Origin: Sphingobacteriales bacterium
GTDB taxonomy: Bacteria; Bacteroidota; Bacteroidia; Chitinophagales; CAIOSU01
Assembly: GCA_027483645.1 (NCBI GenBank)
Contig: JAIXUD010000022.1
Span: 62,001 to 126,000 of the forward strand
Direction: 5' to 3'
DNA: 64,000 nt
Below, piece after piece: positions 3,238 through 61,820 of this stretch. How positions within the stretch are numbered: the stretch's first letter is position 1; the number at the start of each line of letters is the position of its first letter. The position numbers were made by a program, and so were the translations under genes. The notes beneath the pieces are model-generated. The model did no database searches. It was not told where the DNA came from and was given only the letters and a program-made list of their open reading frames with translations.

Positions 3238-3428
3238 CGTCATTGCGAGGAGAGACTTTGCGAAGCATAGGACCGCCGAAGCAATCCCTTGCAATGAAAA
3301 ATAATGTACGATGACTATTGAACCAATCACACAACACCGATAGCATAGGGATTACTGCCAGGGCAGTGAGAAGAGTTGCTTCGTTATTCCACTTCGCGAA
3401 AAGCTATGTTCCATTCCTCGCAATGACG
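3238..3428. repeat. MITE-like element with CGTCATTGCGAGGA termini (copy 2)
   Basis: Perfect 14-bp terminal inverted repeats, CGTCATTGCGAGGA at 3238 and TCCTCGCAATGACG ending at 3428. Inner parts of both ends are also loosely palindromic. It is a relative of the element at 1385-1651 and occupies nearly the whole gap between the SUMF1-like and BtuG-like genes. No coding capacity. Confidence 0.8.
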
Positions 3429-4827: not shown

Positions 4828-4833
4828 GAATAA

Positions 4834-5043
4834 GATGTGGCATAGGCAGGTCTTCTGGCTCGTTCTGCCTTGGCCGCCTTCCCATCGCGCTTTGAAACGC
4901 AAAAGTGGCATATTGGCCAAGGTGTATGGTTGGTTTTTGTCTAGAATATTACCAACCAAATGAACTTACAGCAACGGGGATTGCTCCGGATTTGCACCGG
5001 ATTCCCTATTAAGTCTCGCTGGAGGCGAAACACCTATAACATC
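4834..5043 (-). promoter_or_regulatory. Cobalamin (vitamin B12) riboswitch aptamer
   Basis: On the minus strand the 5' side reads TATAGGTG..., then TTAATAGGGAATCCGGTGCA, AATCCGGAGC, CCCCGTTGCTGTAAG, and near the 3' end the B12 box AGCCAGAAGACCTGCC (4860-4845). A terminal P1 helix can form between GATGT (5043-5039) and ACATC (4838-4834). These are the conserved blocks of cobalamin riboswitches. It lies 115 nt upstream of the BtuG-like gene and would repress the operon when adenosyl- or other cobalamin is bound. Confidence 0.95.
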
Positions 5044-5132
5044 GTAATCCGAGGGTAAAGATAGAAAAAATAGTAACGAGTTAGGTACTTCGATTACGCT
5101 GTCAATGACATAAATAGCGTTGTGAAAAATGT

Positions 5133-5230
5133 AACCACTAAGAACACTAAGAAAAAAAGGCACTATGTTCACTAAGTACATAATACGGGCTTTGTGTTCT
5201 TTGTGATTTCCTTTGTGCACTTTGTGGTTA
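5133..5230. repeat. Dispersed inverted repeat, AACCAC...GTGGTT family (copy 1)
   Basis: Starts AACCACTAAGAACACTAAG and ends CCTTTGTGCACTTTGTGGTT, so the two ends pair. A second copy with about 90% identity by eye lies at 61671-61767, including the shared central TACGGGCTT(T/C)GTGTTCTTTG. An open frame of 94 codons here on the minus strand (4966-5250) is only the repeat plus the riboswitch read through. Confidence 0.8.
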
Positions 5231-5319
5231 AAAAGCACACTTGAACACAAGGAAAATGGAGAAACGAATTTTTATACAGCAAAAACCATGGTCCATCGTC
5301 CTTGGTCCATCGTCCAAAT

Positions 5320-9073: not shown

Positions 9074-9117
9074 GTAAGTATCTTCATTTTTTGAAATGCA
9101 TTTCCTGAAACCCATTG

Positions 9118-9180
9118 CCGTGTGGAGGGCGTTGCCCCCCCGATGCCATTCTGGTGCTCCGCCTGAGGCGGACGTAATGC
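9118..9180. repeat. Divergent REP-like repeat (copy A)
   Basis: GTGGAGGGCGTTGCC...ATTCTGGTGCTCCGCCTGAGGCGGACGTAATGC follows the same plan as the REP-like copies around the transposase at 20202 (GGAGGGCGATGCC...AATTATGGTGCCCCTTTGGGGCGTA), with a changed hairpin (TCCGCCTGAGGCGGA). Confidence 0.5.
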
Positions 9181-9334
9181 TATGTATTATACAAACAACA
9201 CTAAAAGAAAATCTGATACTGCAGTTTAACCGAAGGAGCTATGCTCACCGCTTCTGGAGTGATGGCAGCCGAAAACAGTCAAATTCTCCCAATACAATTG
9301 CCGAAAAGTAAAATTTGTTGCCCATATTTGCTGC

Positions 9335-11388: not shown

Positions 11389-11515
11389 TTACTAATGACG
11401 TACGATATACGGATTTTGATGCACGAAGTACAATGTACAAAGTACAATGTTTTTTTTATGGTTTTTGGTAGATGGGGATGTTGGCATGTAAGTCATCTTA
11501 TGTTGATATGACATT

Positions 11516-11655
11516 GTGCAAGCCCCAAAGGGGTGTAATAATTCTAGCGTGGGGCACCGCCCTACGTACATAATGCGTTTCCGGAAACTCTTTACGTCCC
11601 GAGGGCGGTGCCCCCGGCTAAAATTATTGTGCCCCCTTGGGGCGTATTATTAGGA
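11516..11655. repeat. Pair of inverted REP-like repeats (copy B1/B2)
   Basis: Left copy 11520-11568 (GCCCCAAAGGGGTGTAATAA...CACCGCCCTACGTA) and right copy 11593-11650 (ACGTCCCGAGGGCGGTGCC...TTATTGTGCCCCCTTGGGGCGTA) are inverted relatives. Both match the repeats flanking the RAYT-type transposase at 20202. The pair fills the gap between the response regulator and the kinase and could form a long hairpin in the shared transcript. Apart from this the gap 11389-11691 holds nothing I recognise. Confidence 0.8.
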
Positions 11656-17074: not shown

Positions 17075-17197
17075 TGTCATGGTGAGCGGAGCCGAACCAT
17101 CCGTAATATGTACACATAATATGGATACACAATGCGGATATGTGATTAGCATTATGCCACCTACATTGTGGATGGTTCGGCTCCGCTCACCATGACA
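17075..17197. repeat. Perfect 28-bp inverted repeat around a 67-bp core
   Basis: Arms TGTCATGGTGAGCGGAGCCG plus AACCATCC (17075-17102) and their exact complement at 17170-17197. The core is AT-rich with several TGTACACAT/ATATGTG-like dyads. There is no open reading frame. It looks like a non-autonomous repeat unit; the remaining ~100 bp to the TPR gene are featureless. Confidence 0.8.
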
Positions 17198-19836: not shown

Positions 19837-19910
19837 GGGCCCTTAGCTCAGTTGGTTAGAGCAGTGGACTCATAATCCATTGGTCGTAGGTTCGAGCCCT
19901 ACAGGGCCCA
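19837..19910 (+). tRNA. tRNA with anticodon CAT (tRNA-Ile2 more likely than elongator Met)
   Basis: Cloverleaf of 74 nt: acceptor GGGCCCT/AGGGCCC, D arm GCTCAGTTGGTTAGAGC, anticodon stem GTGGA/TCCAT with loop CTCATAA, T arm GTAGGTTCGAGCCCTAC, discriminator A; CCA is not encoded. Anticodon CAT fits Met or the lysidine-modified Ile isoacceptor. The GGGCCC acceptor and the TTGGTCG variable region resemble E. coli ileX, which favours Ile(AUA). A terminator follows. Confidence 0.95.
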
Positions 19911-19918
19911 CACTCTGA

Positions 19919-19958: not shown

Positions 19959-19975
19959 GTTTTTTGGGGTTACAT

Positions 19976-20146
19976 ACGTGGTTCGTTGGGAGGGCGGTGC
20001 TGCTCCACTAGAATTATTGGGCCCCTTTGGGGCGTAACGCAATACGGGCTTAATATTGTTTAACACGCAATACCTGAAACGCACGGCGTACGGAGGGCGA
20101 TGCCGCTCCGCTAGAATTATGGTGCCCCTTTGGGGCGTACGCAATT
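19976..20146. repeat. Two direct REP-like repeats upstream of the transposase (copies C and D)
   Basis: Copy C ~19982-20038 (GGGAGGGCGGTGCTGCTCC...GAATTATTGGGCCCCTTTGGGGCGTAAC) and copy D ~20075-20142 (CTGAAACGCACGGCGTACGG...GAATTATGGTGCCCCTTTGGGGCGTACG). Each contains two small hairpins (GGAGGGCGATGCC side and GCCCCTTTGGGGC). Copy D is repeated almost perfectly, inverted, at 20669-20750 on the other side of the transposase gene. Confidence 0.9.
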
Positions 20147-20201
20147 AAAGGTTTGCAAATTCGGAATTGCTTGGTTTATTTGTATTTTAAATTAAATCGC
20201 T

Positions 20202-20654
20202 ATGCCGCAATCCTTAACGAAACAATACACGCACATCATTTTTAGCACAAAAAACCGAGAGCCATTGATTGATGAAAGGATAGAGCCCGAATTGCATGCT
20301 TATTTGGGTGGCATCTGCAAAGAGATGGATTCCCATCCGATTATTGTTGGTGGCTACGTTGATCACATCCACATCCTTTGCAACCTCTCCCGTAAGGTTG
20401 CCTTGATGAAACTACTGGAAGAGGTAAAAGGCCATTCAAGCAAATGGATAAAAGGCAAGGGTGATAATTATCTAAATTTTTACTGGCAACAAGGTTATGG
20501 CGCTTTCTCTGTTAGCCCGACACACATCAACTCTGTTTACAATTACATCGCCAACCAACACGAACACCATAAAACACAATCCTTCCAAGACGAGTGCCGT
20601 GGTTTTTATAAAAAATACGGCATTGAATACGACGAACGATATGTATGGGATTGA
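20202..20654 (+). mobile_element. IS200/IS605-type Y1 transposase, RAYT-like, flanked by inverted REP-like repeats
   Basis: 150-residue CDS. HUH nuclease motif in VDHIHILCNLSR (residues ~52-63), basic segment KGHSSKWIKGKG, catalytic Tyr probably in SVYNYIANQHEHH (Y near 125 with helix QHEHH). The family cuts single-stranded DNA next to hairpins. The gene is bracketed by ~70-bp inverted copies of a REP-like repeat whose relatives occur elsewhere in the window (9118, 11516), which is the hallmark of REP-associated tyrosine transposases rather than of a freely moving IS200. The gene is intact and starts at ATG 20202. Confidence 0.9.
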
Positions 20655-20668
20655 AGATGTATACTATG

Positions 20669-20750
20669 TTACGCCCCAAAGGGGCACTATAATTCTAGCG
20701 GAGTGGCATCGCCCTCCGTACGCCGTGCGTTTCAGGCCGTGCGTTTGAGA
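20669..20750. repeat. Inverted REP-like repeat downstream of the transposase (copy E)
   Basis: TTACGCCCCAAAGGGGCACT...TCTAGCGGAGTGGCATCGCCCTCC then GTACGCCGTGCGTTTCAGG is the reverse complement of copy D with only a few changes. It extends almost to the stop codon of the convergent sigma factor gene (20768). Confidence 0.9.
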
Positions 20751-20767
20751 AATTATAGGTAATGGGT

Positions 20768-49576: not shown

Positions 49577-49803
49577 AGACACAAGACGCAAGACACAAGA
49601 CACAAGACACAAGACACAAGACTCGAAAATGTCAGGAGTAATGAGATGGTAAATGATTGAATAAGTTGAACACAGCGAGTCTTGATACTTGATACTCGCT
49701 ACTTGATACTAAAAACACAGTGAGTCTTGATACTTGATACTCGCTACTTGATACTAAAAACACAGTGAGTCTTGATACTTGATACTCACTACTTGATACT
49801 AAC
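49577..49803. repeat. AGACACAAG run plus three tandem 45-bp repeats in front of ftsW
   Basis: 49577-49622 is a run of AGACACAAG units. 49669-49803 holds three 45-bp direct copies (starting at 49669, 49714 and 49759), each AACACAG(C/T)GAGTCTTGATAC with TTGATACTCGCTACTTGATA and ACT following; copy 3 has CAC for CGC. Only single-base differences separate copies. There are no spacers, so this is not a CRISPR array. Copy 3 ends 2 bp before the ftsW ATG. Related TATCAAGTA units lie at 61585-61618. Confidence 0.9.
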
Positions 49804-61584: not shown

Positions 61585-61767
61585 TTGGTATCAAGTATCA
61601 AGTAGTGAGAATCAAGTACCTCCTATTTGACTATGCTGCCAATGATAGAATTTGTGTTGCTAGAATGTTAAACCACTAAGGACACTAGGAAAAAAGACAC
61701 TAAGTTCACCAAGTACATATTACGGGCTTCGTGTTCTTTGTTATTTCCTTTGTGCACTTCGTGGTTA
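61585..61767. repeat. TATCAAGTA units and second copy of the AACCAC...GTGGTT repeat
   Basis: 61585-61618 has TATCAAGTATCAAGTAGTGA, the inverse of the ftsW-upstream repeat. 61671-61767 is copy 2 of the repeat at 5133-5230, again with inverted ends (AACCACTAAGGACACTAG ... TTGTGCACTTCGTGGTT). No gene in 61582-61820. Confidence 0.8.
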
Positions 61768-61820
61768 AAAGCATATCAGTACAAATGCACTTCTGAGGTG
61801 TTCCGTCAATATAGCAGAAT

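Follow-up and report, generated by a model that had tools for sequence, protein, structure and literature searches.

Transposase Locus and Its Repeats

At this locus lies tnpA, an open reading frame at 20202-20654 on the plus strand of the 64-kb window (the whole stretch of DNA that was analysed), which encodes a 150-aa Y1/HUH transposase of the subclass 1.2 type carrying the motifs DHIH, WQQ and YIANQHEHH. The protein scores 81.7 bits with the Pfam model Y1_Tnp (cut-off 23) and 60.5 bits with the NCBIfam IS200/IS605 model (cut-off 55), thus passing both. A tRNA gene with CAT anticodon (19837-19911) precedes tnpA, and the gene is enclosed by inverted arms at 20053-20139 and 20670-20756, each 87 nt long and 89% complementary. 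The first-pass annotation had described a Y1 transposase gene between inverted repeats with further copies at 9118, 11516-11655 and 19982; both the arrangement and the copies are real. A covariance model built on 26 repeat copies of the own genome (R1) found six repeat units in the window (Table 1), while the Rfam models gave nothing relevant across the repeat region. Four of the units, beginning at 11510, 19966, 20069 and 20661, belong to the training set of the model and their scores are therefore favoured by construction; the units at 11577-11655 and 9100-9181 do not.

Table 1. Repeat units and their parts in the window.
Feature	Position	Strand	Evidence and remarks
Repeat unit upstream of tnpA	20069-20148	-	Model score 89.6 bits, training copy; runs A to B on the minus strand
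Hairpin A, upstream unit	20124-20136	-	Sequence and structure analysis
TAG, 5′ foot of hairpin B, upstream unit	20111-20113	-	Sequence and conservation
Hairpin B, upstream unit	20091-20110	-	Sequence and structure analysis
Repeat unit downstream of tnpA, inverted relative to upstream unit	20661-20740	+	87.7 bits, training copy
Hairpin A, downstream unit	20673-20685	+	Sequence and structure analysis
TAG, 5′ foot of hairpin B, downstream unit	20696-20698	+	Sequence and conservation
Hairpin B, downstream unit	20699-20718	+	Sequence and structure analysis
Extra repeat unit between tRNA gene and tnpA	19966-20045	-	67.6 bits, training copy
Inverted doublet, REPIN-like	11510-11655		Units 11510-11588 (+) and 11577-11655 (-); central GTTTCCGGAAAC common to both
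Second unit of the doublet	11577-11655	-	83.5 bits, not a training copy
Divergent single unit with a different hairpin A	9100-9181	-	33 bits, E 6.8e-9, not a training copy

The window also holds other elements. Inverted repeats of the GTCATTGCGAGGAATGAA and TGTCATGGTGAGCGGAGCCGAACCATC types (1385-1436 with 3376-3427, and 17075-17107 with 17165-17197) are unrelated to the tnpA repeat family. Dispersed simple repeats of the TTGTGTCT and ATGGTCCATCGTCC types are numerous and also adjoin units of the tnpA family. There are further three tandem 45-nt units at 49669-49803, an 84-nt repeat present at 5150-5233 and 61687-61770 (90% identity, 56 kb apart) and a cobalamin riboswitch on the minus strand at 4828-5050 (90.8 bits).

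Architecture of the Repeat Unit

Read in A-to-B order, the unit of about 79 nt consists of hairpin A, a linker of about 9-10 nt, the trinucleotide TAG and hairpin B; in the unit upstream of tnpA hairpin A is GCCCC AAA GGGGC and is followed by a linker of 10 nt. The edges of the unit are sharp, with conservation dropping to background directly beyond either end of the 79 model positions (54 copies; a 55th was listed without flank and left aside). That each repeat carries two hairpins, as proposed from the sequence at first sight, is borne out by the 26 genome copies, in which pairing is kept in 97.9% of the paired cells and both sides have changed in 11 cells. The covariation score of 0.166 compares with a shuffled mean of 0.085 and was reached by none of 500 shuffles, and the signal is lost when the pairing partners are slid. 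The one-sided changes form G-T pairs on the A-to-B strand (14 cells) where the other strand would have A-C mismatches, which points to the A-to-B strand as the one likely to fold, either as DNA or as RNA.

TAG is invariant or nearly so among the 26 copies, and the base before it varies. A simple script read it in 36 of 54 own copies, having halted at an earlier TAA in the other 18, and returned CTAG in 21, TTAG in nine and ATAG in six, some of the latter lying in the linker; GTAG was not seen among these 36. The unit therefore has NTAG and two hairpins where a canonical REP has GT[AG]G at the 5′ foot of one hairpin. A link to the CGTC repeats was suggested by CGTCC before hairpin B, in the other orientation, in some own copies; it was dropped because the CGTC stems, as described in PMC3733652, begin with AT pairs, and the tag here is not constant.

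Copy Number, Placement and Doublets

The repeat is not confined to the window. In the own genome (4.27 Mb in 23 contigs) blastn gave 26 matches and the model at least 75, a lower bound from the scoring of 78 candidates. TnpA itself has three matches in this genome, namely the protein itself (100% identity) and proteins on contigs C10 (68%) and C2 (36%), so that the gene is single-copy at high identity and the many identical copies expected of an ordinary IS200 were not seen. Since the repeats outnumber the tnpA genes and no gene has a near copy, this is not an insertion sequence that proliferates. Around the C10 transposase lie several units of a related variant with 16 matches, partly shared with the first family, and the C2 transposase has a third, small family of four matches beside its gene. 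Four more PF01797 proteins of the same genome are of class-2 type, with YIHQNP or similar (L062-L065, on contigs C9, C5, C21 and C22), and two of them are related to each other and have open frames of some 216 codons.

Open reading frames of at least 100 aa are avoided by 44 of 54 copies against 12% of random window places, where an overlap means more than 25 nt shared with a frame called by a simple script. The orientation of the neighbouring genes is near baseline (14 of 44 copies between convergent genes; baseline 12 of 56). Among the 150 listed model hits in five congeneric genomes we found 39 neighbour pairs with starts within 400 nt, of which 19 are “+-”, 11 “-+” and nine tandem, and the start distance is 66-68 nt in 14 of the 19 “+-” pairs. 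A central GTTTCCGGAAAC, exact or nearly so, is common to most of the doublets listed. The repeats thus often form inverted doublets at fixed spacing, as REPINs do.

Class of the Transposase

Subclass 1.2 of the Y1 transposases has been characterised by Y...Q..HH, DH[IV]H and WQ in a protein of about 148 aa, by low copy number and by the lack of insertion sequence properties; it is marked “no” for REP and is said to occur mostly in Cyanobacteria and Bacteroidetes, whereas the class-2 RAYT/TnpAREP proteins carry Y...NP (all as described in PMC6006769). TnpA shows the signature motifs, the length of about 150 aa and the low genomic copy number of subclass 1.2. The two HUH histidines, WQ and Y...Q..HH are kept in all 26 aligned relatives, and Y...Q..HH occurs in 99 of 102 candidates compared with none of six IS200/IS605 and none of four class-2 proteins.

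A quick tree built from 112 rows sets close group, distant group, IS200/IS605 proteins (SH-aLRT 100) and class 2 (87) apart with the minimum number of changes, although 55 of its 109 inner branches are weak. TnpA falls apart from the class-2 proteins of its own genome, and its nearest named relatives are from Bacteroidota. Besides L033 (see below), the tree leaves out L046, L054-L058 (partial), L082, L108, L127, L143 (stop or broken frame) and L263. A TnpA profile found eight sequences in the PDB, all of IS200/IS605 type, and the AlphaFold2 model (pLDDT 91) retrieved IS608- and ISDra2-like chains first, with 29 IS200/IS605-type chains ahead of E. coli TnpAREP (4er8, rank 30). The first-pass annotation had called the transposase RAYT-type and proposed a phylogeny against the RAYT groups; with YIANQHEHH in place of Y...NP, and standing outside class 2 in the tree, TnpA does not carry that label, and judged by its sequence it belongs with the IS200-like subclass 1.2.

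Related Genes Beyond the Genus

For the scan of species genomes the best 80 of 587 TnpA relatives were taken. By their record titles these come from Bacteroidota, Verrucomicrobiota, Planctomycetota, Lentisphaerae, Acidobacteria, Fibrobacteres, Ignavibacteria and others, many of them metagenome bins. Inverted repeats flank 66 of 83 close and 11 of 21 distant members (the C2 protein being counted as distant) compared with none of 296 pseudo-genes placed in the same loci (blastn score of at least 30, 300 nt on each side of the gene); at the other 17 close genes none was found at this score. None of six plasmid IS200/IS605 genes has such flanks, while the Persicobacter plasmid member does. An earlier control, in which the upstream side of one locus was compared with the downstream side of another, gave 154 of 1200 at the same score against 63 of 77 true pairs; it was high because the loci share similar hairpins, and was therefore replaced by the pseudo-genes. 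At 17 of 70 loci the flank has further copies in other parts of that locus, compared with 1 of 70 in the foreign-flank control and 2 of 70 in the random-segment control, and the genome of the planctomycete Pan216 contains 44 repeat matches (40 scored) with four TnpAs. Locus L033 was left out of the pooled tests since it shares a contig with L067.

A hairpin of at least seven pairs with TAG directly at its 5′ foot was found at 34 of 86 close-group loci versus 1 of 74 control loci, and at this strict setting not at the remaining 52; counted singly, 62 of 241 hairpins near close-group genes are TAG-footed versus 1 of 48 in the control. A second hairpin ends 6-10 nt before the TAG at 50 of 64 TAG-tagged hairpins (exactly 9 nt in 30), lies further away in two and was not found in 12. 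Where another hairpin was found on the 3′ side, it is 17-40 nt away. The layout is constant between genomes of the close group under several phylum labels, and the stem sequences vary freely. The distant group has hairpin repeats as well, but these are TAG-tagged at just 1 of 25 loci, which makes the TAG design a trait of the close group. Distant flanks at L042-L055 are simpler single palindromes such as TTGCTCCATCGGAGCAA, without TAG and differing between genomes. Upstream of tnpA in Bacteroides xylanisolvens XB1A (L105) hairpin A and TATATAGCGTAG are repeated in tandem, with hairpin B truncated in every unit but the last.

Presence and Turnover in Other Genomes

TnpA homologues occur in 30 of the 60 genomes searched, the own included. 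Four congeners hold 29, 25, 28 and 42 model matches; the last of these, G004 (78% complete), gave no TnpA match, and G001 has only a fragment of the close TnpA and a 41% relative, yet carries repeats. The repeats can therefore outlive or lack the enzyme. Outside the genus 55 genomes were covered: G017, G041 and G045, the only ones in which a close TnpA is present at full length, have two, two and seven model matches, five others have one each and 47 have none; both matches of G017 and one of the two in G041 lie on the tnpA contig.

Most compared repeat sites are shared among G001, G002 and G003, which are about 94% identical, and change there is by tandem units, so that movement appears rare on this time scale. 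Of nine G002/G003 pairs in which both stretches include the repeat, eight are free of gains or losses of at least 18 nt and the ninth differs by a 151-nt tandem unit (a tenth, L211/L195, has no overlap there and was left out); one G001/G003 pair differs by a 97-nt unit. Presence and absence differences do occur between congeneric species. When eight own-genome sites were searched in the genus, one was syntenic on both sides, and repeats were absent in G002, G003 and G004; of four G003 sites searched two aligned, with repeats missing in G002 or G001. These comparisons gave no clean empty site; the edges of the absent states have diverged and no breakpoints are readable.

Comparison with Known Systems and Rival Explanations

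REPs, REPINs and their RAYT/TnpAREP transposases of class 2 are known from E. coli, Pseudomonas and Stenotrophomonas. The locus resembles these systems in its low-copy Y1 gene between inverted repeats with a dispersed intergenic palindromic family of its own, in the TAG that stands at a hairpin's 5′ foot, where REPs have GTAG, and in inverted doublets of fixed spacing, at 67 nt here compared with 71 bp reported for GI REPINs (PMC3116915). It differs in that the protein is of class 1 with Y...Q..HH, each unit has two hairpins, and the first base of the tag varies (C, T or A in own copies, also G in other genomes). The partnership of gene and dispersed family in the REP/RAYT concept proposed at first pass is supported, and the repeat departs from the canonical form. 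Compared with subclass 1.2 as described in PMC6006769, residues, length and copy number agree, but repeats flank most members tested here, and relatives occur under further phylum labels by record title. In open-licence papers we found no description of a subclass 1.2 enzyme paired with bipartite repeats.

We consider it fairly probable that the locus is REPtron-like and belongs to the IS200 side of the Y1 family, with a resident subclass 1.2 TnpA that acts in trans on the bipartite repeats. That it is an ordinary IS200/IS605 insertion sequence accompanied by non-autonomous derivatives of its ends is, in our judgement, quite unlikely. The NCBIfam model passes (60.5 vs. 55), IS608 and ISDra2 are the closest structures with the same fold and HUH/Y1 catalytic residues, hairpin recognition is a known theme of these enzymes, and hairpins near the ends are a feature of the family (as described in PMC8266576). 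Yet near-identical copies are lacking, the own-genome TnpAs being only 100, 68 and 36% identical; ten other genomes have 1-9 TnpA matches each by simple count; the long inverted repeats around tnpA are absent at all six IS200/IS605 loci; and repeats greatly outnumber genes. A class-2 RAYT in the strict sense, or a TIRYT with its long terminal repeats, has the same arrangement of a low-copy Y1 gene, inverted flanks and a moderate dispersed family with doublets, the TIRs being called “double palindromic” in a figure legend (PMC3733652). This reading is very improbable in view of Y...Q..HH in place of Y...NP and of the tree, which parts TnpA from the class-2 proteins of its own genome; moreover, PMC6006769 assigns all 26 TIRYTs so far described to subclasses 2.1, 2.2 and 2.5 and none to 1.2.

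The repeats might instead be host regulatory or RNA elements (terminators, mRNA stabilisers or nucleoid sites) for which the transposase, now inactive, was only a past source. Intergenic placement, sites held between species about 94% identical, the copies in G004 and G-T wobbles that also fit an RNA structure would all agree with such elements. We regard this as rather unlikely nonetheless, as the gene has flanking repeats under many phylum labels and the stems of these repeats are unrelated in sequence, each TnpA has its own variant beside the gene, the doublets have a fixed geometry, and gene orientation around the copies is near baseline (14/44 convergent vs. 12/56). A REP/RAYT-like system that combines an IS200-like subclass 1.2 enzyme and a bipartite repeat is thus well supported, and TnpA probably spreads the two-hairpin family.

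Possible Mechanism and Implications

For binding, strand choice, dimer formation, TAG-guided cleavage and movement we infer the following by analogy. The tnpA gene would stay in place and its product act in trans on repeats dispersed mainly between genes, often as inverted doublets. In single-stranded DNA the A-to-B strand would fold into two hairpins, and a TnpA dimer may bind hairpins A and B as in IS608. TAG at the foot of hairpin B would help to choose the cleavage site, as GTAG does in TnpAREP. Tyr115 would then cut and rejoin, so that doublets or single units may be excised, copied or inserted, and tandem arrays may grow by recombination. In one group-3 REPtron, as described in PMC8266576, mainly the last two bases of GTAG are selected, cleavage is at CT, and an altered motif leads to an altered cleavage site; NTAG fits such a selection.

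Extending this beyond the genus, we think it only slightly likelier to be right than wrong that this is a second, separately evolved partnership of the REP/RAYT type, in which subclass 1.2 transposases of Bacteroidota, the PVC group, Acidobacteria and others maintain one bipartite design (hairpin A, about 9 nt, NTAG, hairpin B) that accounts for many GC-rich intergenic palindromes in these phyla, with both enzyme classes following the rule of a TAG guide at the hairpin foot. Domesticated bacterial transposases with a lasting population of non-autonomous repeats are known mainly from REP/RAYT pairs, which have been linked to class-2 enzymes. An enzyme of the IS200 side that maintains repeats would point to more than one origin of the partnership. 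It would also give a role to subclass 1.2, described without insertion sequence properties and REPs (PMC6006769), and would offer a simple comparison of how a hairpin-adjacent guide directs cleavage of single-stranded DNA.
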